Origin: a virus | Virus record (IMG/VR): IMGVR_UViG_3300032308_001864 | Location: 1-52,750 of that record | Reading direction: 5' to 3' (one strand) | Length of the DNA stretch: 52,750 bases | Shown: positions 29,164 to 52,750 of the stretch, in pieces | How the letters are laid out: every line of letters begins with the position of its first letter | Position numbering within the stretch: position 1 is the stretch's first letter | Notes under the pieces: model-generated | What the model was told of the DNA's origin: nothing | What the model saw: the letters and a program-made list of their open reading frames with translations, nothing else | Database searches by the model: none | Position numbers and translations under genes: made by a program

Positions 29164-30714
29164 ATGAAAAACGGAACAGCGGCTTTAGGGGAATCCATAT
29201 CATCGGCTGCTAGGATGGAATATGGAATAGCAGGTTCTGTTTACGGCAAAAGTAAAGCCGGTGAACAAGATTTTGTCTGCAGAGTAGAATTTGTTTTATA
29301 TGATGATTCTGACAAAATTAAATATCAGAAATATTTAGGGGTAATTGGAACTATTGAATGTCGACCTGTTATAGATGATAACTTGTCTGCCGACAGTCCA
29401 ATTGTGGCTTTTCCAATAGATAGTAATATAAAAAAATTACCATTAATAAATGAATTAGTCTTAGTTAGAGCAGCTTCAAATATGAAGACTCAGGATCCCG
29501 ATGAAAACTATAATGCTTCTCATTACTACATCAATATAATTGGAACTTGGTTTTCTCCTGAACATAATGCCACCCCCGATGCGGGATTTTTCAAAGATAA
29601 AAGTAAATCTGTTACAGGTGATAGATTTAAAGATACTGGGCTTATTAGACCCTTAATACATAATCCCGGAGATATAACATTTGAAGGCAGATTTGGAAAT
29701 ACTATACGACTTGGCGGTTCAAATAAAACTTCTATTAAAAATCCTTTAACAGGAGAAGATAATAAACCAGTTATTTTAATTAAAAATGGTCAAAATGTCA
29801 ACTTAAAGAAAGAGTTGAATAAGGCTATATATGAAGATATAAATAACGATGGTTCTTCTTTTTATATGCTGTCTGGACAGAATAACCCACTAGTTTTAGG
29901 AAATTATAATTTTGAATCATACGGTCAAAAAGTTGAATCAACTAAAAGGAATATGGTTGAAATAGATAATGTTGTAAATAATACTCCTAGCACATCGTTA
30001 AAACAAAACGAAACCGCTCCCGTAAAAGAGGAGAAATATACTGAAAAGAAAGTTATAACAAGTGGAACCGAGAATAAAGACAAAAATAAATTATCAGACG
30101 AACTGGCTACTATTCCTGATACTGAAGGGGAAATGGACGAATTTGTTACTATGACCTCCGATTTAGAAGATGTGATAGATCTTAATCAAAGTATATCAGA
30201 AGTTTATGAGGACGCAAATTCTCCTACTATTACAATCGGTATAAATTTTGCATTAAATGTAAAACATATAATTCAAAATACACCATGGAAATGCTTCCTA
30301 GCCAGTACAGAAATGGTCATGAAATATTATAATATAACAACTGAGGCCACTCAAAACACTATTCCTAAAAAATATTTAGATTCTAGTAACAATTTTAATT
30401 CAAGTGCTTTTTATAGTGCAAAAGGATTCAATATAACTAAAGTGAATATCTCAGGAGGAGTAGAAGGATATGCTAAAATAATTCAAGTATTTAAAGAACA
30501 AACTCCTAGAATTCCTATAATTTTATACCGTAAGCCAACCAATTTAAGCATAACTGACCCTAACCGAGGTCACTTTGTCGTAGTGGTGGGAATTACAGAC
30601 AGTAATCGTATAATAGTAAATGACCCTGGTAGGAGAGATGGATATAGAGTTATTTTAAGAGAAGAACAACTAAGAACTTTCGGTGGAAGTTTACGTATAC
30701 CAAAAAAATATTGA
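29164..30714 (+). CDS. Baseplate spike-associated protein with C39-like cysteine peptidase domain
   Basis: This 516-residue protein has two parts. Residues about 20-250 resemble a gp5-type OB-fold/spike-base region (GVIGTIECRPVIDDN, ELVLVRAAS, FEGRFGNTIRLGGS). A linker rich in Lys, Glu and Thr (about 255-350) leads to a papain-like C39 peptidase domain (about 365-510). Its catalytic set is complete: Gln371, Cys377 (NTPWKCFLAS), His470 (RGHFVVVVG) and Asp487 (NDPG). T4 gp5 carries a lysozyme domain at the spike instead. The enzyme could cut peptidoglycan cross-links or host surface proteins on entry, or process a virion protein. Confidence 0.8.
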   Translation: MKNGTAALGESISSAARMEYGIAGSVYGKSKAGEQDFVCRVEFVLYDDSDKIKYQKYLGVIGTIECRPVIDDNLSADSPIVAFPIDSNIKKLPLINELVLVRAASNMKTQDPDENYNASHYYINIIGTWFSPEHNATPDAGFFKDKSKSVTGDRFKDTGLIRPLIHNPGDITFEGRFGNTIRLGGSNKTSIKNPLTGEDNKPVILIKNGQNVNLKKELNKAIYEDINNDGSSFYMLSGQNNPLVLGNYNFESYGQKVESTKRNMVEIDNVVNNTPSTSLKQNETAPVKEEKYTEKKVITSGTENKDKNKLSDELATIPDTEGEMDEFVTMTSDLEDVIDLNQSISEVYEDANSPTITIGINFALNVKHIIQNTPWKCFLASTEMVMKYYNITTEATQNTIPKKYLDSSNNFNSSAFYSAKGFNITKVNISGGVEGYAKIIQVFKEQTPRIPIILYRKPTNLSITDPNRGHFVVVVGITDSNRIIVNDPGRRDGYRVILREEQLRTFGGSLRIPKKY

Positions 30715-34833: not shown

Positions 34834-35376
34834 ATGATTTTTAACAGCGCAGGACATAACCCAAAAGGGATTAAAGTAGACCCAGGAGCATCCGGTTTTG
34901 GTTACAATGAAGCACATTTGGCATGTATGCAGCGTGATGCTGTCAATGCTGAATTAGATAAGAAGAATGTTAAGTATATTTCAGATAAAGACGACGAAAC
35001 ACTATCTGATTATCTTAAAAGAATACAGACAGGAGAAGGGTCGGTGGTACTAGAGTATCATTTTGACGCTTTTAATGGTAAGGCAAGTGGTGCTACAGCC
35101 TTAGTTGGCAGCGACGCTGATAGATTAGACAAGATGTTTGCCAAAGAATTGGTTGATACTACCTCTACCATTTTGGGTATACCTAATAGAGGCGTAAAAA
35201 GCGAGTCTGAAAGCCATAGAGGAAGACTAGGTTTAATGCGCGAACAAGGTACAGTATCTTTAATTGAAATATGTTTTATTGACAATAAGGCAGATTTAGA
35301 TAAATGGTTTGCCAATTATGGTAAATTAGCTAAAGCCTATGCTGATATTTTGATAAAATATGAAAATTTAGTTTAA
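34834..35376 (+). CDS. N-acetylmuramoyl-L-alanine amidase (amidase_3)
   Basis: This 180-residue zinc amidase would cut peptidoglycan between MurNAc and L-Ala. Ligands are His8 (NSAGHNP), Glu26 (YNEA) and His76 (EYHFDAF), with the catalytic Glu145 in SLIEICFIDN. There is no signal peptide or cell-wall-binding domain. It sits inside the virion operon between gp6 and adhesin-like genes, so it may be the endolysin or a virion-borne entry enzyme. Confidence 0.9.
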   Translation: MIFNSAGHNPKGIKVDPGASGFGYNEAHLACMQRDAVNAELDKKNVKYISDKDDETLSDYLKRIQTGEGSVVLEYHFDAFNGKASGATALVGSDADRLDKMFAKELVDTTSTILGIPNRGVKSESESHRGRLGLMREQGTVSLIEICFIDNKADLDKWFANYGKLAKAYADILIKYENLV

Positions 35377-43000: not shown

Positions 43001-43660
43001 ATGGGCTACTTAGATAACACGATTGTTTCTATTGACGCGATATTGACAAAGAAAGGTAGAGAATTACTGGCTAGAAATGACGGTTCTTTTCAAATAACTC
43101 AATTTGCCTTGGCAGATGACGAAATAGACTACACATTGTATAATGTGAATCACCCATCAGGTTCTGCTTTTTATGGAGAAGCTATTGAAAACATGCCTCT
43201 CTTGGAAGCTTTCCCCGACGAAACACAAGTAATGAAGTATAAATTAGTTACTCTCTCAAGAGGAACTAGTAAACTACCAGTAATTAATGTGGGGTACAAT
43301 TCAATTGTATTAAAACAAGGTGCATCGATTGTAATAACTCCTCAAACACTTAATTACTTGGGTGCAGTTAGTACATTTGAGCCATCTGGGTACGTAGTAA
43401 CAGTTAGTGATGCTAGATTACTTGCAACTTTTACTGGAATAGGAGTAGACACTAGTAACTTAAACGTGACTAGTTTAAATAGTTCTGCGGGTTCTCAGTT
43501 AAGTAAGACCGCAATAGGAACATCTTTTACATTAGTTGGTACTACAACTAATACACTTTTCACTAATAATGGTACCACTTTAACTACTACTATCACCGTA
43601 GTTGGTAGAGATTCTGGTGCTAGAATTACAATTCCTTTAACAATAAATAAAAATAGCTAA
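43001..43660 (+). CDS. Conserved virion structural protein
   Basis: This 219-residue protein begins MGYLDNTIVSIDAILTKKGR then ELLARNDGSFQITQFALADD, a conserved block in tail genes of pelagic T4-like phages. From about residue 90 it is a Thr/Ser-rich Ig-like beta domain. Probably a tail or neck decoration protein; exact role unknown. Confidence 0.75.
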   Translation: MGYLDNTIVSIDAILTKKGRELLARNDGSFQITQFALADDEIDYTLYNVNHPSGSAFYGEAIENMPLLEAFPDETQVMKYKLVTLSRGTSKLPVINVGYNSIVLKQGASIVITPQTLNYLGAVSTFEPSGYVVTVSDARLLATFTGIGVDTSNLNVTSLNSSAGSQLSKTAIGTSFTLVGTTTNTLFTNNGTTLTTTITVVGRDSGARITIPLTINKNS

Positions 43661-43662
43661 AT

Positions 43663-44694
43663 ATGTCCTTTATAGCATTCGCAGAAGATGATAGTGTAAT
43701 AAGTTCAGAAACAATAACCTCGGCTTTATGGGCGGGTAACTCCTATAATTTAAGTGGTTCTTACTATACTTCTAGTGCACAAGAAACTGGTAGCAGCGGT
43801 AAATTTTATTTAAATGTTTATCAATTACCTTCCAATTTTAGTGGCTCAGAAGTACAATTTTCTGTAGCATATGGCCACATTTCAGGTAGCGGTTCCGCTT
43901 TATTTAATTCATTTGTAAACGAGAAATCGCCCACTAGAGATGTGTATGGCCAAATGAGAAATTTAGTTTATGGTGATGAAGGTTCCGTGTTTAATTTTGG
44001 TGGTTCTAACGGGGCTTCTAGAGATATCTATGTAATAAATGTAAATAGAAGTAGATTTAAAGAAAGTATAGCAACTGGAACTTGGAATTTGGAATTAAGA
44101 GTTGGTACTGGTAGCATATATTTAACTGACAATAGTAAAGATAGTTCTATAACAAGTTTTATTGGTAGTAACGAAGTATATTATATTGTTAGTGGTACTA
44201 ACGGTAATAGTTACAATAGTTCTTCCATACAAACTAATAGCGGTAGTTACGGATTGTTTTTCCCTGATATGGGGGTATTTATTCTTAATCCTAGAGCTTT
44301 AAGCTTACCATATAGTATAGGTGGGTTAAATATGTCAATTAATGAAACTCCAGCAACAAGTTACACTTCTTCTGTAAACTTAAATAATAGAACTTTGTAT
44401 ACTGCAATAGCATCTAGTTCTGTATTTTCTGCAAGAAGCCAAGAAACAATTTCATCAAGATACTTTTTTGTAAACGCTAAAAGTTCTCAACTAAATTATA
44501 CTACAAATCCATCTATTATCGATAATAACGGGAACCTGTTATATCCTACTTTAGTAGATAATCCTCAAACATATGCAACTACCATAGGATTGTATAATAA
44601 CTCAAATGAACTTTTGGCTGTAGCAAAATTAAGTAAACCTTTAATTAAAGATTTTACTAAGCAATTAACTTGCAGAGTTAAACTGGAATTCTAA
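43663..44694 (+). CDS. Virion structural protein
   Basis: This 343-residue beta-rich protein is Ser/Gly/Tyr-rich, with features such as VNRSRFKESIATGTWNLELR and YGLFFPDMGVFILNPRAL that look conserved in related phages' tail loci. It starts 2 bp after the preceding gene. No enzymatic motif seen. Confidence 0.7.
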   Translation: MSFIAFAEDDSVISSETITSALWAGNSYNLSGSYYTSSAQETGSSGKFYLNVYQLPSNFSGSEVQFSVAYGHISGSGSALFNSFVNEKSPTRDVYGQMRNLVYGDEGSVFNFGGSNGASRDIYVINVNRSRFKESIATGTWNLELRVGTGSIYLTDNSKDSSITSFIGSNEVYYIVSGTNGNSYNSSSIQTNSGSYGLFFPDMGVFILNPRALSLPYSIGGLNMSINETPATSYTSSVNLNNRTLYTAIASSSVFSARSQETISSRYFFVNAKSSQLNYTTNPSIIDNNGNLLYPTLVDNPQTYATTIGLYNNSNELLAVAKLSKPLIKDFTKQLTCRVKLEF

Positions 44695-44711
44695 ATTTGT
44701 TATGAACCATT

Positions 44712-47700
44712 ATGTCCGCATTCAAAAGAATAAATAAATCTGATGTAGTTGTAAGTCCATATATAGCAAATAAAAACTGGAGTTTTAATAATACTCAGTT
44801 AGAAAATAATGGAATACTAATACACAATGGTGCAAAATGCACTGGGTCTTTTGATCCTGACAAGGACTATTTTACAAATGGTGAATATGATAGATTGATT
44901 TATGAATCTATAAATCATATCTTTTATCAAGAATTTTCTGGTTCTTATTTAGATTCTCAACAAAATTTAACATCAAATTATTATCTATCTTCTTCTATAT
45001 ATAGAGCCAGTGGGTCATATTATACAGAAGGCGTAACTGGGTTTATCTATAAAAATTTTCCCAAAAATGTTGGAGATAAAATAAAAGTTATATCTGTACC
45101 TAAAAATATTTATGGCAACTCTTTACATCCGACAACTTTTAATATATCTTCTTCTACTTATAATTTTATAGACGATGGTGACGGTAATGTGTTAGATACA
45201 TTGAATAATAGAGAATTAGTAGGTAACATTTTTTATAAAAAAGGAATTGTTGTAATAACACACCAAGCGTATCAACAAATTTTTACCTTACCGGCTTTTG
45301 CAAAAAATGATTCGGTAACATTTAAAAGAAATGATGTTCTAAAAATGATATACCCGCTCTCTAATGACGATCCTAGAGACGGTTCTTTTATAAATAATAG
45401 TTTAACTTTATCCGGGTTAGACTCAAGTTTTTTTATAAATAATGGTGACGGAACAATCACATTAAACGCAAATGAAGTCGGGGTTTATAAGACGTATTAT
45501 ACAATAGATACGCAAGTACAATCTCCATGCCCAGGAGTTTTAACTAGTAACCAAGGTTTAATAACAGCGATCATAGAACCGGGAGATTGTTCTTTTTCTC
45601 TACTTGTTGATTTTAATCCTACTACGCCTACACTAACCCCTACAAGAACTGCTACTGCTGCACCAACTTCTACTCCTACTAGTACAACTACTTCAACACC
45701 TACTAGTACACCTGGATTAACTTCAACGCCCACTGTTACACCTGGGTTAACTAAAACCCCTACTCCCACGAACACTTCTACTCCAACTAGAACTGTAACA
45801 CCCACCTTGACTTTAACTGGAACTCCTACTAGTACACCGACATTAACAGCTACTAGTACTCCAACTCCAACTCTAACTTTGACACCTGGACTGACTCAAA
45901 CTCCTACTCCTACCGTCACTTTAACAGCAACTGTGACACCTGGATTAACTTCAACACCTACTCCAACTCAAACACCAACGCTGACAGTAACTGCTGGATT
46001 ACCACAAACGCCTACTCCAACAGTATCATTAACTGCCACTCAAACAGTTACCGCTACGCAAACGTCCACATCGACGTCTACACCAACGTTAACACCTACG
46101 TCTACCCCTAACGTAACGCCAACGCCGACTTCTACACCTACTTCAACACCGACAAGCACACCAGTTATTGGTCTTATCTATATAGATACCAATGCTTCTC
46201 AAACCATGGGGGTAGCAAGCGCTAGATTTGCTAAAGCTGGCTCTCCTACTACATATACAAATTTGGTATATTATTCCGGCAAAGATTTTCCTATTGGTCC
46301 TGGAGAATCAGGATATTTTACATCCGTAAGTCAAAGTGTGGGATGGGGTAGATTAGTGTTTACACCTACTACTACTGGATGTGTAGACATGGTTATAGAT
46401 AATGGTTTTGCAAGCAATTCTCCAAGCTATTGTTTCGACCCTGTATTTGAATATAGTAGTTGGGCAGAAGGAATCTACGGTACACCCGGGGCTGGTAAAA
46501 CTCTTTCTTTATTTTTAAGTCAACCTCCTCCTCCAACACCTACAATAACTCCGACTTTAACAAATACTCCTACTGTTACTGCGACGACAACTGCTGTTGC
46601 AACGGCTACGGGTAGTTTCTTTGTACAATTTAAGAAAAATACTGACCGAGGTGGCGGCAACGTAGATGCATTAAGCTTTTTCCTAAGAGTAAATAATGGT
46701 TCTTGGCAACAGTTTCCATCTAATGGTTTTTGCGTATCTCCACCTAATCCTCAACCAACATATATATCTTCAAGTTTTTTTGCAATCACAGCTTCGGTTG
46801 GATCCACGTTAGATTTTGGAGTAACTGATTGTACTGTGCTTACAGGAGCACCTGTTAAATTCGGGGTAGGGTATACAATAAGTTCAGGTAGCGGTGATTG
46901 GAATACTTATTGTGGCACTGACCCTTTTTATAGAATCACTAACTGGACTGGCAGCAATGTGTATTTAAACGTAGACGTTTCAGGAACAAGATTTGTAACT
47001 TGTAGTTTAGTACCAACACCAACGCCATCTCCGACACTTACTAGTACCCCCACACTTACTAGTACACCAACGTTGACTCGAACCTTAACTGGCACACCGA
47101 CTGCTACTAACACTCCAACACTTACTAGTACTCCAACACTTACTAGTACCCCCACACTTACTAGCACTTCAACTCCAACGAGTACTACGACATTGACTGC
47201 CACCAATACACCGACGGTAACACCACCGCCTACGCAGACTCCAACTCTAACGGGTACACCAACGTTAACGCCAACTTTAACTCAGACATTAGCGCCTACA
47301 CAGACACCGACGTTGACTAATACTCCTACCTTGACTAGTACTCCTACCCGTACTGCTACACAAACTGTGACGGGTACTCCTACTAATACACCAACTCAGA
47401 CTACAACAATAGGATCAACTCAAACTGCGCAGCCTACACAGACACCGACGTCTACACAAACACCGACACTTACTAGTACACCTACACTTACTAGTACACC
47501 AACGTTGACTGCTACTGGCACGCCTACCCCAACAAGCACGCCTACTAATACGGCAACACCAGCGGCTACTGCAACTGCAACGCAGACTCCTACTAGTACA
47601 CCGACGTTGACAGCTACTAATACTCCAACGTTGACTGCTACTAATACTCCAACGCTTACTGGCACAGCTACACCAACGTTGACTGCTACTAGCACACCTA

Positions 47701-48359
47701 CTCTGTCATTAACGCCTACACAGACGCCAACATTGACTTCTACGACAACTAGTACTCCTACACCATCATATATCGTAGATCCAGGATTTACATGTGTGTC
47801 TATCGAGTCGTTGAACTTAATTCAGGGTGAATGTTATTACTATCCTAATACGTATGAAAGCGCCATAGCAACTTTTGCTAAATTTTATAGTCCATATGGG
47901 TCACCTCCCGTGAGACCTTTATTAGATGTCGTATTTACTATAACTTTATCAGATAGTAGTGTGGTATACAGTACTATATACGCCACAGATCCATTTCCAT
48001 CTGATGGCGCATATGCTATATGGTATAGTGCATATCCGTGTGGTGGATTCCAAGAGCCGACTGTTACAAATGCTACTGCTAAATATTTAAATAATTATAA
48101 TGTTGTGAGTTGCGGCGATGATTCTTACGGAACTTATAATTACTATTTTGCAACACAATATTTAGATTGTGAGCAAAATTCAGCACCAGGTGGATTTGTA
48201 ATTAGAACAATACTTTCACCTTCTTCTTGGATTTGTGGGGCTACTGATGATTTACAATACGAAATTACAGGAACAGCAACTGAGGGTGACTATAACGTTT
48301 CACCAAATAAAATGAACGGAGATCTATTAATTAGTTCTTGTGGTGGAACATGTGCTTAA
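44712..48359 (+). CDS. Tail fibre with mucin-like Thr/Pro blocks
   Basis: This 1215-residue protein is organised as a chain. Residues 1-190 are a conserved virion-attachment region ([20 protein letters not shown]), and 195-300 an Ig-like domain. Residues 304-484 form Thr/Pro block 1. Residues 485-604 are a Cys-containing beta domain, 605-634 a short Thr/Pro/Ala block, and 635-767 a second beta domain. Residues 768-1018 form block 3, and 1019-1215 a Cys-rich terminal domain. The blocks repeat TPT/TLTSTPT-type units with Ser, Ala, Asn and Gln interruptions. Synonymous codons vary strongly, so the pattern is kept at protein level. Such spacers are extended and, in eukaryotic mucins, O-glycosylated. 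The next gene resembles a polypeptide GlcNAc-transferase. Confidence 0.85.
45621..46163 (+). repeat. Thr/Pro repeat block 1 of the fibre gene
   Basis: Imperfect tandem repeats encoding TPT/TST/PGLT-type units (residues 304-484), with mixed ACN and CCN codons. Opposite-strand translation gives a Val/Gly repeat frame, which is a shadow. Confidence 0.9.
47013..47765 (+). repeat. Thr/Pro repeat block 3 of the fibre gene
   Basis: The longest repeat block (residues 768-1018), built from TLTSTPT, TATNTPT and TQTPT variants. Near 47035-47165 some units are nearly identical in DNA (CTTACTAGTAC), pointing to recent unit duplication within an older repeat. Confidence 0.9.
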
Positions 48360-48414
48360 AAATAAAAATATTTGTAAATTTATATGTAATATTTTAAAAT
48401 TTTTAATTATAAAA

Positions 48415-48446
48415 TTTGGTTTTTAACAAAAAAAGTGTTATATTTG
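48415..48446 (+). promoter_or_regulatory. Bacteroidetes-type promoter for the glycosyltransferase genes
   Basis: TTTG (48415-48418), exactly 20 bp, then TATATTTG (48439-48446). The ATG at 48451 follows only 4 bases after the -7 element, so the mRNA should be leaderless or nearly so. It uncouples the glycosyltransferases from the virion operon. Confidence 0.85.
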
Positions 48447-48450
48447 CAAA

Positions 48451-49698
48451 ATGAAAAAGATTTTTATATCAATTGCGTCTTATAGAGACCCGGAACTAAT
48501 CCCCACAATCGAAGATTGTATAAAAAATGCTAAAAACCCCGAAAATCTAGTTTTTAGTATAGCTTGGCAACATTCTAAAGACGATTCTTTTGACGATTTA
48601 TCTGTCTACAAAGATGATAAAAGGTTTAAAATTATCGATATACCTTATGAAGAATCTAAAGGGGCGTGTTGGGCAAGAAATAGAGTCCAAGAAAATTATA
48701 ACGGAGAAGATTATTATCTTCAACTAGATTCACATCATAGATTTATCCCTAATTGGGATGCGGAATGCATAAAAATGATACAAAAATTAAAGAAAAAAGG
48801 TTTTAGCAAACCTCTTTTAACAGGTTATGTATCGTCTTATGATCCCTCTAATGACCCGGGATCTAGAATAATGCAGCCTTGGAGAATGGCTTTTGATAGG
48901 TATATACCGGAAGGAGCTATATTCTTTTTACCTGAACAAATTCCTGATTATGAAAAATTAAAAGAGCCCATACCAGCAAGATTTTTATCAGCACATTTTA
49001 TTTTTACTGTGGGTCAATTTGCAAAAGAAGTTCCTTATGACCCCGATTATTATTTTCATGGAGAGGAAATTTCTTTGGCTGCTAGAGCTTACACTTGGGG
49101 GTATGACCTTTTTCATCCACATAAAGTAATAGTTTGGCACGAATATACTAGACGTGGTAGAGTTAAACAATGGGACGATGATAAAGATTGGGTTAACAAA
49201 AATAATAGTGCGCATAAAAGAAATAGAACACTTTTTGGAATGGATGGAGAATGTCCTTGCACAACCGATTTTGGTATTTATGGCTTCGGTAGAGAGAGGA
49301 TGTTGTATGATTACGAGAAATACGCGGGATTACAATTTAGAACAAGACGAGTACATAAAAATACTTTAGATAAGGTAACACCTACACATGAACCTATAAC
49401 TGATCAAGAACATTATGAGGGATTAGTTTCTAGATTTAAACATTGTATAGATGTTTTTCCTGGACAAGTACCGGAAAATGATTATGATTTTTGGGTTGTA
49501 GCAGTACATTCTGAAAATGACGAAACCTTATATAGAAAAGATTTATCCGGCGAAGAAATAAAAGTGTTAGGTAGTGACCCTGACAATTATTATAAGATTT
49601 TTGTGGAATTTGATTCTATAGAAAAGCCTCATTATTGGGTTGTATGGCCGCATAGCACATCTAAAGGGTGGTGCGAAAGATTGACTAATAAAATATAA
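48451..49698 (+). CDS. GlcNAc-transferase-like glycosyltransferase (GT60/PF11397 type)
   Basis: This 415-residue enzyme is of the family that includes eukaryotic polypeptide alpha-GlcNAc transferases acting on Skp1 hydroxyproline and on Thr of trypanosomal mucins. The N-terminus KKIFISIASYRDPELIPTIE and the metal-site motif YLQLDSHHRF (Asp93-Ser-His95, then NWD) are diagnostic, together with GACWARNRVQ (sugar-nucleotide region) and YFHGEEISLAARAYTWGYD. The last 100 residues (from about 320) are an extra, unassigned domain. It lies directly after the Thr/Pro fibre under its own promoter. The fibre as substrate is inference. Confidence 0.85.
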   Translation: MKKIFISIASYRDPELIPTIEDCIKNAKNPENLVFSIAWQHSKDDSFDDLSVYKDDKRFKIIDIPYEESKGACWARNRVQENYNGEDYYLQLDSHHRFIPNWDAECIKMIQKLKKKGFSKPLLTGYVSSYDPSNDPGSRIMQPWRMAFDRYIPEGAIFFLPEQIPDYEKLKEPIPARFLSAHFIFTVGQFAKEVPYDPDYYFHGEEISLAARAYTWGYDLFHPHKVIVWHEYTRRGRVKQWDDDKDWVNKNNSAHKRNRTLFGMDGECPCTTDFGIYGFGRERMLYDYEKYAGLQFRTRRVHKNTLDKVTPTHEPITDQEHYEGLVSRFKHCIDVFPGQVPENDYDFWVVAVHSENDETLYRKDLSGEEIKVLGSDPDNYYKIFVEFDSIEKPHYWVVWPHSTSKGWCERLTNKI

Positions 49699-49700
49699 GT

Positions 49701-51317
49701 ATGAAGATAAAAGTAATACAGTATTATACGTCTAATATAAGTTATGGGCAGTATTCTAAAGAGATAAATGAAAAATATTGTAGCTTACATGGCTATGATT
49801 ATTACTGCGAGACAGACGATGTTAAAATACAGAATAAAATAAAAGATAGGGCTCCTACTTGGTACAAACCTATTTTTATAAATGAGCATTTACATGATTG
49901 CGACTACGTTTTATTTATAGATGCAGATGCAGTTTTTGATGATTGGTCTAAAAAAATAGAAGAATATGTTGAAAAAAATTATGATTTTGTTGTAACTGAA
50001 GACCACGGTCCATCTGTTATGAATGCGGGTGTTATTTTAGTAAAAAATACAGATACTAGCAAGAATTTTTTAAAAAAATGGTGGGAATTAGCGGAAAATT
50101 TAAATAATCTAAAAAATGGATTATGGCATGACCAAACATGTTTTGGTCTTCTTGCAAAATATAATGATGACCATAAAAATAAAATAAAGATTGTAACAAA
50201 TAGATTTTTAAATCATAGGGAATATAATAAAGGCGCTTTAATATTTCACGCATTTGCATATGGTATGCAGCCTTACAGAACGATTGACCAAGTCTATAAA
50301 GATAAAATATTAAATTCTAATTTTTCTTTAGAAAAAAAAGAAGTAGTTAAAAAAATATATTTAGTATATCATTGTTTTTTAGTAAAAAATTGGAAAATTC
50401 TTGTTAAAGAACAAATAGAGAGAATTGTAAATTCTGGATTGTATGATAAAGCTGAAGTTTTTTATTGTACTGTAATAGATTTGCATGACAATAAAGAAGA
50501 GTTCTTAGATCTTGTAAAAGATTATACTAAAATAAAACCAACATTTTTTGAAAATAACCAATACGAGCACGAAGGAATTAAAAAAGTTTGGGAAACAGCA
50601 AATGACAATGATGGATATATTTTGTATTTTCATACAAAAGGCGTCTTTAATGATTTTATAGATAATGATAATCCTCAGAAAGATGATTTAAAAATAAAAA
50701 CGGTTAAAGATTGGCGGCACTTATTAGAGTATTATTGCATAGATAAATGGGAAGAAGCAGTTGATAAATTGCAATATCATGATATGACGGGTGTCACTAA
50801 TAATAATAATTGGTGGTGGGGGAATTTTTGGTGGGCTACTACAGACTACATAAAAACTTTAAATACCCCTTCTGATGGAGATAGATGGTACTACGAAGCC
50901 TGGGTAAACAGCAGAGGTTCAGCAACTAAATATGAATTTCATCATTGTGATTTTATATTTTATTATACCGACTACCCTGAAAAATTTTATAAAAATAAAG
51001 AGTTTTATAAAGATAGTAAAATAATACTTAGAAGCGCTTTTTACGGGACACCCCATTCTAGAATGGACGAAGGTTGGCCCCCAGTAGAGGAAGATCCAGT
51101 TTTGATAGACGCTTATGAAAAAATAGAACAAAATCTAAAAGCACACGATTATAAAAAATTTCATTTTATGACTGATAATAATCTTGTTAAAAAAGATCCT
51201 TATTGGGGCAAAAGAAAAGTTTTATATATAACGTACAGCTATGATGTAGAACCCGATATTATTTATAATTTATTTTCTATAGAAGGACAATTTATTTCTT
51301 TTGGCCATGCAGAATAA
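49701..51317 (+). CDS. Two-domain glycosyltransferase (GT34-like N-terminus)
   Basis: This 538-residue protein has an N-terminal GT34-like domain. YCSLHGYDYY, then RAPTWYKPIFINEHL, the metal-binding DxD in VLFIDADAV (Asp74/Asp76), and GLWHDQTCFG fit alpha-galactosyl/mannosyltransferases. From about residue 220 a second domain carries FHTKGV and WWWGNFWWATTDYI, a pattern seen in other polysaccharide-type glycosyltransferases. It begins 2 bp after the preceding gene. It may extend a sugar started by the GlcNAc-transferase. Confidence 0.8.
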   Translation: MKIKVIQYYTSNISYGQYSKEINEKYCSLHGYDYYCETDDVKIQNKIKDRAPTWYKPIFINEHLHDCDYVLFIDADAVFDDWSKKIEEYVEKNYDFVVTEDHGPSVMNAGVILVKNTDTSKNFLKKWWELAENLNNLKNGLWHDQTCFGLLAKYNDDHKNKIKIVTNRFLNHREYNKGALIFHAFAYGMQPYRTIDQVYKDKILNSNFSLEKKEVVKKIYLVYHCFLVKNWKILVKEQIERIVNSGLYDKAEVFYCTVIDLHDNKEEFLDLVKDYTKIKPTFFENNQYEHEGIKKVWETANDNDGYILYFHTKGVFNDFIDNDNPQKDDLKIKTVKDWRHLLEYYCIDKWEEAVDKLQYHDMTGVTNNNNWWWGNFWWATTDYIKTLNTPSDGDRWYYEAWVNSRGSATKYEFHHCDFIFYYTDYPEKFYKNKEFYKDSKIILRSAFYGTPHSRMDEGWPPVEEDPVLIDAYEKIEQNLKAHDYKKFHFMTDNNLVKKDPYWGKRKVLYITYSYDVEPDIIYNLFSIEGQFISFGHAE

Positions 51318-52750
51318 TGTAACAATAGTCACCGGATTATGGGATTTAGGTAGAGGTGAACTAAAAGAATGGATGCGTAGAGATTTCGAGCAATACAAGA
51401 AAAAGTTTTTTGAAATGCTTGTGTCTGATGTACCTATGTGTATATGGATACCCTCGTCTTTGGTTGACGAAGTTATGAAAATTAGGTCTGAACATAACAC
51501 AAAAATATTTATAAAAGAAGTAAAAGATTTTGAACAATGGTTTCCTTTTTTTGAAGAACATGAGAAAATAAGGACTAACCCCGACTGGTACAATATAGAA
51601 GGTTGGGTAGCTGATTCACCTCAAGCGGCATTGAAATATTACAATCCTATGATGATGTGTAAAGTTTTCATGCTTAATGATAGCGCGATAATAAATCCTT
51701 TTGAATCTAAATATTTTTATTGGGTAGATGGCGGTTTAACAAATACTGTAAGTACAAGTTATTTTACAGACGGGTCTATATTTAAAAAAATTCCTAATTA
51801 TAGTGAGAAATTCATTCATATTTCTTATCCTTATATGCCGAATAAAGAAGTCCATGGATTTCCGGCTGATAAAATGTATGAATACCTTGGGATAAAATCC
51901 GACGAGGAGATACTGATTTCAAGAGGTGGGTTTTTTGGAGGTAAAAAAGAAGATGTTCACACTTATAATAGTCTATACTATTCTGTTTTAGAAGACACTA
52001 TGCGAAAAGGTCTTACCGGAGCGGATGAATGTCTATTTACAATAGTAAAATATCAAAATAAAAATTTTATCGATTCTTTTAAAATAGAAAGTAACGGTTT
52101 AGTTTGGCCGTTTTTTGAAAAAATACATAATTCAGAATTTGATAAGAGTAGAATTGGGTTATATGTAATAACTTTTAATAGTCCGGCACAATTTGAGACA
52201 TTAATAAATTCAATGTTGTCATATGATGCAAATTTTATAAATAAAACAGAAAAATTTTTGTTAGATAACTCTACAGATTTGACAACAACACCTAAATACG
52301 TAGAATTATGTGAAAAATATAACTTTGAACATATAAAAAAAGATAATATAGGCATAGTAGGAGGGAGAGTTTTTGTCGCTGAACATTTTGATAAAAGTAA
52401 TTTAGATTATTATTTTTGGTTTGAAGACGATATGGCTTTTTATGATAAAAAATTCGGAGTTTGTAGAAATGGTTTTAATAGATACACTCCCGATTTATTT
52501 AATAAATGTATCGATATAATAAAAAAAGAAGATTTTGATTTTTTAAAATTGAATTATAGTGAATTCTTTGGCGACAATTCCACGCAATGGGCTTGGTATA
52601 ACGTACCACAAGTAGTAAGAGACAAATTCTGGCCTGAAAATAACACCTTACCTGAACATGGTTTGAGTCAAAATGCGCCTAAAACACTATTTAAAAATAT
52701 AAAATCTCACAAAGAAACCTCTTATGTTTCCGGAGAAATCTTTTTATGTA
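51307..52750 (+). CDS. Two-domain glycosyltransferase (HtrL/YibB-like plus GT2-like), cut by window end
   Basis: At least 481 residues are present; the 3' end lies outside the window. The start ATG at 51307 overlaps the previous gene by 11 bases. The N-terminal part resembles HtrL/YibB-type proteins: NNVTIVTGLWDLGRGE, MCKVFMLNDS and YFYWVDGGLT (Asp141). From about residue 285 comes a second glycosyltransferase-like domain: LYVITFNSPAQFETLINSML, NFEHIKKDNIGIVGGR and YYFWFEDDMAFY (Asp374/Asp375). Both parts look intact. It forms a three-gene sugar-transfer cluster. Confidence 0.75.
   Translation, partial: MQNNVTIVTGLWDLGRGELKEWMRRDFEQYKKKFFEMLVSDVPMCIWIPSSLVDEVMKIRSEHNTKIFIKEVKDFEQWFPFFEEHEKIRTNPDWYNIEGWVADSPQAALKYYNPMMMCKVFMLNDSAIINPFESKYFYWVDGGLTNTVSTSYFTDGSIFKKIPNYSEKFIHISYPYMPNKEVHGFPADKMYEYLGIKSDEEILISRGGFFGGKKEDVHTYNSLYYSVLEDTMRKGLTGADECLFTIVKYQNKNFIDSFKIESNGLVWPFFEKIHNSEFDKSRIGLYVITFNSPAQFETLINSMLSYDANFINKTEKFLLDNSTDLTTTPKYVELCEKYNFEHIKKDNIGIVGGRVFVAEHFDKSNLDYYFWFEDDMAFYDKKFGVCRNGFNRYTPDLFNKCIDIIKKEDFDFLKLNYSEFFGDNSTQWAWYNVPQVVRDKFWPENNTLPEHGLSQNAPKTLFKNIKSHKETSYVSGEIFLC

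Follow-up and report, generated by a model that had tools for sequence, protein, structure and literature searches.

What does a threonine- and proline-rich, mucin-like tail fibre gene signify when it stands directly before a gene for an enzyme of the GT60 family in a phage genome? This question is raised by the viral contig IMGVR_UViG_3300032308_001864, whose whole record of 52,750 bases was analyzed and is here called the window. Profile scans showed that its AT-rich, T4-like genes include those for a family B polymerase, ribonucleotide reductase, DnaB, gp32 and a baseplate wedge, and its source is a freshwater-type phage. Toward the end of the window, on the plus strand, a gene for a mucin-like tail fibre or tail-associated protein of 1215 amino acids (aa; 44712..48359), the proposed acceptor, is followed by a gene for a 415-aa enzyme resembling GT60/PF11397 polypeptide N-acetylglucosamine (GlcNAc) transferases (48451..49698), the proposed glycan initiator. 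The original prediction, made from the sequence, held that the phage glycosylates its own fibre in the style of mucins, and it gained support from the profile match, the predicted pocket and the co-occurrence in relatives described below. It is thus probable that these genes belong to a cassette by which the phage itself carries out mucin-type O-glycosylation of its tail proteins.

The three Thr/Pro blocks ascribed to the fibre were recovered exactly by an open reading frame (ORF) and composition check, at residues 304–484 (45621..46163), 605–634 (46524..46613) and 768–1018 (47013..47765) on the plus strand, and composition and alternation tests characterized each as a Thr-x-Thr tract. In total, they comprise 462 residues with 217 Thr, 84 Pro and 36 Ser (47% Thr, 18% Pro, and 73% for Thr, Pro and Ser together). 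Every second position is Thr, with 192 Thr-x-Thr pairs compared with 100 ± 5.4 in shuffled sequences (17 standard deviations) and only 11 adjacent Thr-Thr pairs compared with 101. The tracts draw on all four Thr codons, and different DNA encodes identical hexapeptides, which indicates selection on the protein and not a recent expansion of a DNA repeat; the fibre therefore carries long Ser/Thr/Pro-rich low-complexity stretches kept at the protein level, the hallmark of a mucin-like domain. Comparable proteins are found in Trypanosoma cruzi, where mucins contain ~50% Thr, their glycosylation starts on Thr via GT60, and gp72 has a PTVTPTP domain closely resembling the fibre tracts. DNA-level searches of phage records with two window tracts returned no match, and with a tract of the cultured phage XacN1 only XacN1 itself, probably owing to low-complexity filtering in both cases. 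A match of the fibre tract to phrog_15511 was not used on account of its low complexity. Separately, poly-Thr stretches (PTTTTTTTIIPTTTTTT) occur in a short fibre encoded by one viral locus (L054, 11533–12075), and they come close to a T. cruzi mucin peptide that is a GT60 substrate.

Gene order places this protein in the tail. The genes at 43001..43660 (52% identity) and 43663..44694 (43% identity, E 1e-79), both on the plus strand, and the fibre N-terminus are collinear with gp164, gp165 and gp166 of the Flavobacterium phage immuto, the N-terminal tail module (residues 1–259; 44712..45488, plus strand) being homologous to gp166 (21% identity, E 5e-12), and the next genes in immuto are annotated as tail fibre and tail spike. 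Because of this collinearity, the 1215-aa protein is taken as a tail protein, and the transferase genes of the window directly adjoin virion genes. The gp166 homologue of immuto has no Thr tract, and neither a (Tx)7 tract nor a GT60 match was found in the immuto genome.

In the profile search that the prediction had called for, the 48451–49698 product matched PF11397 clearly (E 7.8e-72; 243 bits with a cut-off of 21), and the expected YLQLDSHHRF motif is present, its Asp being residue 93. D93 and H95 of the putative metal-binding DxH motif D93-S94-H95 (48727..48735), together with H230 (49138..49140), a putative third metal ligand, show no variation across 49 phage homologues. The AlphaFold2 model (pLDDT 93.6, pTM 0.90, 41 sequences) has a predicted GT-A fold on which the DxH motif and the conserved distal His lie as in GT60/PF11397 enzymes. 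Its catalytic fold is predicted to be that of GT27, since the best 29 entries in the PDB were all GT27 polypeptide N-acetylgalactosamine (GalNAc) transferases (Z 19.0–22.5 over 259–291 residues), the next matches, other GT-A enzymes, had Z 16.9 and below, and Foldseek was concordant. The structural check of the pocket, also called for by the prediction, was likewise favourable. In GalNAc-T2, Mn is bound by Asp224, His226 and His359 (PMC4432651), with 135 residues between the DxH motif and the distal His compared with 137 in the window enzyme; from this spacing and the modelled fold we infer that D93, H95 and H230 are the equivalent ligands. No ricin-type lectin domain was listed in a Pfam scan at E 0.1, in which the C-terminal domain was not searched alone, and a sequence search of solved structures yielded nothing but chance matches for this enzyme and for the third transferase described below. 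In the review literature, GT60 enzymes are the protist initiators of mucin-type O-glycosylation. Tandem second GT60 genes were seen in five loci (L050, L058, L062, L078 and L080), the aligned ones being ~40% identical to the window enzyme; these copies may perhaps serve a different acceptor or step.

Two alternative substrates can be weighed against these features. Glycosylation of modified phage DNA bases would agree with the known DNA-modifying glycosyltransferases of phages (cited in PMC12619734) and with the position of the cassette in XacN1, where genes for DNA polymerase and RNase H are a few kb away. Nevertheless, we consider it extremely improbable, as the predicted fold is polypeptide-transferase-like, the cassette stands beside fibre genes in many relatives, and no base-hypermodification enzyme was listed in Pfam scans of 27 window proteins, which are part of the window ORFs. 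The other substrate, hydroxyproline as in Skp1, would need a prior prolyl hydroxylase; Pro does make up nearly a fifth of the tract residues, and hydroxyproline is the residue modified by the GT60 Gnt1 enzymes (PMC6939170). However, it is Thr and not Pro that holds the alternate positions, and neither the window nor the complete genomes of XacN1, RAS14 and CM1 showed a PF13640 oxygenase (other oxygenase families were not searched, and host enzymes are possible), which was found in only 2 of 36 GT60 records; this makes hydroxyproline a very unlikely substrate. Thus, of the two acceptors first named, Thr is the more likely because this prolyl-hydroxylase-type oxygenase is mostly absent, and hydroxyproline has lost ground.

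The two two-domain glycosyltransferases noted downstream were also confirmed, on the plus strand. The first (49701..51317; 538 aa), proposed to act in glycan extension, has a GT34 (GMA12/MNN10)-like N-terminal domain (PF05637, 44 bits), and its sole PDB match, a weak one, is the PBCV-1 glycosyltransferase 2p6w (E 0.003). The second (51307..52749), cut by the contig end and best started at ATG 51307 and not at TTG 51301, joins a YibB domain (PF09612 HtrL_YibB, 50 bits) to a GT2-like domain and is called YibGT hereafter. When 80 IMG/VR GT60 loci and two phage records were grouped into 47 enzyme clusters, YibGT was found in 39/47 GT60 loci, and within one polymerase lineage all 24 GT60 loci of adequate length contained it. 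The model of a relative predicts a GT6-like N-domain and a B4GALNT1/POMGnT1-like C-domain. GT60 and YibGT are naturally fused in one ORF of 1081–1210 aa in L448, L476 and L485, contigs of Myxococcota-type metagenome-assembled genomes (MAGs), which indicates that their functions are linked. The genes between GT60 and YibGT vary and encode GT25, GT10 fucosyltransferase, GT2 and GT34 enzymes, FkbM and other methyltransferases, and carbamoyltransferases, so that by gene content the cassette looks like a conserved initiator and a conserved partner with exchangeable decorating enzymes. A carbamoyltransferase gene comes after GT60 in XacN1 and a similar-sized gene occurs in RAS14 (L082, L083 and other cassettes), an arrangement that suggests carbamoylated glycans.

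If the tracts are acceptors, they and GT60 should occur together, and the survey of related phages that had been proposed showed this. A Thr-rich stretch of at least 40 aa was present in 60/80 GT60 loci compared with 0/120 loci chosen by an arbitrary 14-mer. (Tx)7 tracts occurred in 36/45 GT60-positive viral records and in 2/41 random ones (P 2e-13), at a density of 1.38 compared with 0.027 hits per kb, an approximately 50-fold difference; conversely, PF11397 was found in 14/50 Thr/Pro-pattern records and 0/41 random records. The gene directly upstream of GT60 was Thr-rich in 16/47 cases, whereas 5.5 were expected from within-locus permutation, and 0/20,000 permutations reached that number. 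Among 50,697 phage records, the GT60 enzyme was found only in XacN1, RAS14 and CM1, which were also the only ones with full-length YibGT. These three have 154, 6 and 6 (Tx)7 hits, respectively, and 13 GT60-negative large phages have none (3/3 vs 0/13, P 0.0018, or 0.0095 when RAS14 and CM1 are counted once). In XacN1 the tract-bearing ORFs include 174, 180, 236, 350, 369, 370 and 384, several of them beside structural or tail genes, and the tracts in or near ORF369, ORF350, ORF384, ORF180 and ORF236 contain Arg, giving tryptic peptides such as TYTPTPSVTATVTPTVTR (ORF369).

GT60 relatives are also found in bacteria. In ten Burkholderiales loci (L454, L463, L470, L480, L466, L474, L455, L459, L471 and L443) the gene lies in a type VI secretion system (T6SS) locus near an Rhs-type protein, a PAAR-like protein and VgrG, as named from sequence reading; VgrG is a spike related to phage tail spikes. 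VgrG and GT60 are on opposite strands and so share one locus but not one operon. In all ten, VgrG ends in a long Ser/Thr-Pro repeat tail, with the units (TP)n, (ETPD)n, (SEEPPP)n, (TEEPPQ)n, (STPEP)n, (TEPPP)n and (SDEEPAA)n, whereas such repeats were found in none of 20 other VgrGs of the same genomes (one gave a borderline score with no repeat), and a 63%-identical VgrG of Trinickia terrae with no GT60 nearby has no repeat tail. The ten VgrGs are orthologous and therefore are not ten independent events; the stronger point is that the repeat unit diverges while Ser/Thr and Pro stay. Two further arrangements were observed: in Jiulongibacter sediminis (L434) a chromosomal GT60 stands directly after a gene whose 262-aa product has a PTPTLTPS tract, and it precedes YibGT, and in a Planctomycetaceae MAG contig (L437), binned as bacterial but looking like phage DNA, GT60 adjoins Thr-x fibre-like proteins.

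Several points weigh against fibre glycosylation. The window is a metagenomic fragment, and glycosylation is something we infer from its genes; a shared fold is no proof of the acceptor of GT60. Common descent links the records, and likewise the VgrG loci, so that the P values overstate independence, and a comparison within one polymerase lineage gave a weak association, with (Tx)7 in 26/27 GT60-positive and 9/12 GT60-negative records, many of the negatives being cut contigs (median hits 23 vs 10, P 0.02). For this comparison the L071 polymerase served as lineage marker in place of the 1746-aa tail gene, of which only one near-identical fragment was found (L084). Local Thr-rich ORFs in the lineage did not differ with GT60 (21/27 vs 40/53), and whole records were compared instead because the locus flanks are cut; among the Thr/Pro-pattern records, no significant alternation-specific link emerged (13/43 vs 1/7, P 0.66). 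Co-occurrence might accordingly reflect ancestry only, in that large aquatic myophages carry both features with no functional link, and the weak contrast within the lineage and the many Thr-x phages without GT60 point that way. This explanation is nevertheless very unlikely, as jumbo phages of Xanthomonas and Stenotrophomonas, with enzymes sharing 42% identity with that of the window, show the pairing again, and so do Burkholderiales T6SS spikes with divergent repeat units; RaK2, 121Q and CBB, large phages said to be XacN1-related, have neither a tract nor a GT60 match, and direct adjacency exceeds the within-locus permutation.

The pairing is also incomplete in both directions. Nine of 45 GT60 records are without (Tx)7, 36 of 50 records with Thr-x tracts (fragments) have no detected GT60, and among 25 families listed no glycosyltransferase family stood beside the GT60-negative tracts; tract and enzyme are therefore not obligate partners, and the tracts may have another use, such as that of a linker. 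Most GT60 genes of bacteria stand next to no Thr-rich gene, so that family alone does not fix the acceptor. These gaps can be accommodated if the cassette serves to produce or alter a polysaccharide of the host surface, for instance as a block to superinfection, with the tracts as unglycosylated flexible linkers. Cassette and fibre would then be neighbours for no reason other than that both belong to the late, fast-evolving genes of host interaction; the GT25 (lipopolysaccharide-type) and carbamoyltransferase families in the cassette would also fit. Yet the initiator is predicted to be nearest in fold to polypeptide transferases by a clear margin, tracts are strongly enriched per kb in GT60 records, the VgrG tails covary with GT60, and the GT60-bearing XacN1 has glycoproteins (PMC5852040), which together make the polysaccharide explanation unlikely.

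Under the favoured explanation of fibre glycosylation, the GT60 enzyme would work in the host cytoplasm with Mn2+ and a nucleotide sugar, predicted to be probably UDP-GlcNAc, and glycosylate many of the 217 tract Thr. The GT34-like and YibB-GT2 enzymes would then extend and cap the glycan, as would fucosyltransferases, methyltransferases and carbamoyltransferases in relatives. The fibre would gain a bottlebrush-like stalk, stiff and hydrated, between its folded domains; the surface sugars of this stalk would differ between phages, and it could benefit the phage through spacing, resistance to proteases or receptor traps, or masking, while mimicry of host sugars, suggested in the original prediction, may be a further role. 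A wider principle of prokaryotic mucin-type O-glycosylation, in which GT60 travels with and is dedicated to low-complexity Ser/Thr-x tracts on contractile-tail machines, namely phage fibres and T6SS VgrG, while exchangeable downstream transferases vary the coat, is a proposition for which we see the chances as even. If true, GT60 mucin initiation in eukaryotes would have a phage or bacterial counterpart or origin, and mucin-type glycosylation, a eukaryotic theme in the sources used, would extend to bacterial viruses and T6SS spikes. This would account for the long Thr-x tracts of aquatic phage fibres, give a reason for the hypervariable glycosyltransferase clusters beside fibre genes, and bear on phage adsorption, stability and recognition.

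Other features of the window concern its expression and host. TAnnTTTG, a promoter-like element of the Bacteroidota −7 type, precedes the GT60 gene (48439..48446, plus strand), and a second one precedes the fibre gene (44692–44699). The motif occurs within 80 bases of 7/38 gene starts compared with 1.8 ± 1.4 in shuffled upstream regions, and is not enriched over the window as a whole. Its enrichment before gene starts and the immuto synteny hint at a Bacteroidota host. A GroEL-like chaperonin is encoded at 2–1105 on the minus strand (phrog_5725, E 1e-88), and the tail genes include those for a peptidase C39-like domain protein (29164–30714) and an Amidase_3 protein (34834–35376).

Among known systems, the T. 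cruzi TcOGNT-2 and Dictyostelium Gnt2, GT60 alpha-GlcNAc-transferases that initiate protist mucin-type glycosylation (PMC3769586, PMC8724618), belong to the same Pfam family as the window enzyme and share with it the DxH motif and an acceptor rich in Thr and Pro in which Thr greatly outnumbers Ser; in the window this acceptor is the proposed one. Unlike them, the window enzyme, whose activity is predicted, is encoded by a phage beside its proposed acceptor and is soluble and presumably cytoplasmic, whereas they reside in the Golgi. The GT27 GalNAc-transferases, initiators of animal mucins, provide the closest solved fold (Z up to 22.5) with Asp-x-His and a distal His, but are only ~12% identical in sequence to the window enzyme, which is PF11397 by sequence. 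In the chlorovirus PBCV-1, virus-encoded transferases likewise act on a virion protein, and the 538-aa enzyme matches 2p6w weakly; however, this is a eukaryotic algal virus with glycans on its capsid protein and no mucin tract. We know of no mucin-like Thr-x tracts and no GT60 in the glycosylation of mycobacteriophages. There, phage-encoded glycosyltransferases glycosylate virion proteins (Freeman et al. 2023, cited in PMC12619734), with glycans at the C-termini of capsid and tail tube subunits, unlike the proposed fibre tracts.

Phage self-glycosylation is thus already known, and a search of the literature library consulted found no account of a phage PF11397 enzyme. To our knowledge, earlier descriptions cover neither the mucin-like tract nor the GT60 initiator, the conserved YibGT partner or the T6SS parallel. 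The novelty first claimed is narrowed by XacN1, for which at least two glycoproteins had been reported and the GT60 gene, ORF334, named a glycosyltransferase, although the accessible part of that paper mentions neither mucin tracts, the GT60 family, a cassette nor the names of the glycoproteins (PMC5852040). XacN1 differs from the window in that its cassette is not directly beside a strong Thr-x gene. Like the window, it has GT60 and YibGT, the latter being ORF330, in a homologous cassette. It also encodes many Thr-x proteins, and as a cultured phage with reported glycoproteins and public raw mass-spectrometry data on its virions (PXD008065) it makes a direct test possible.

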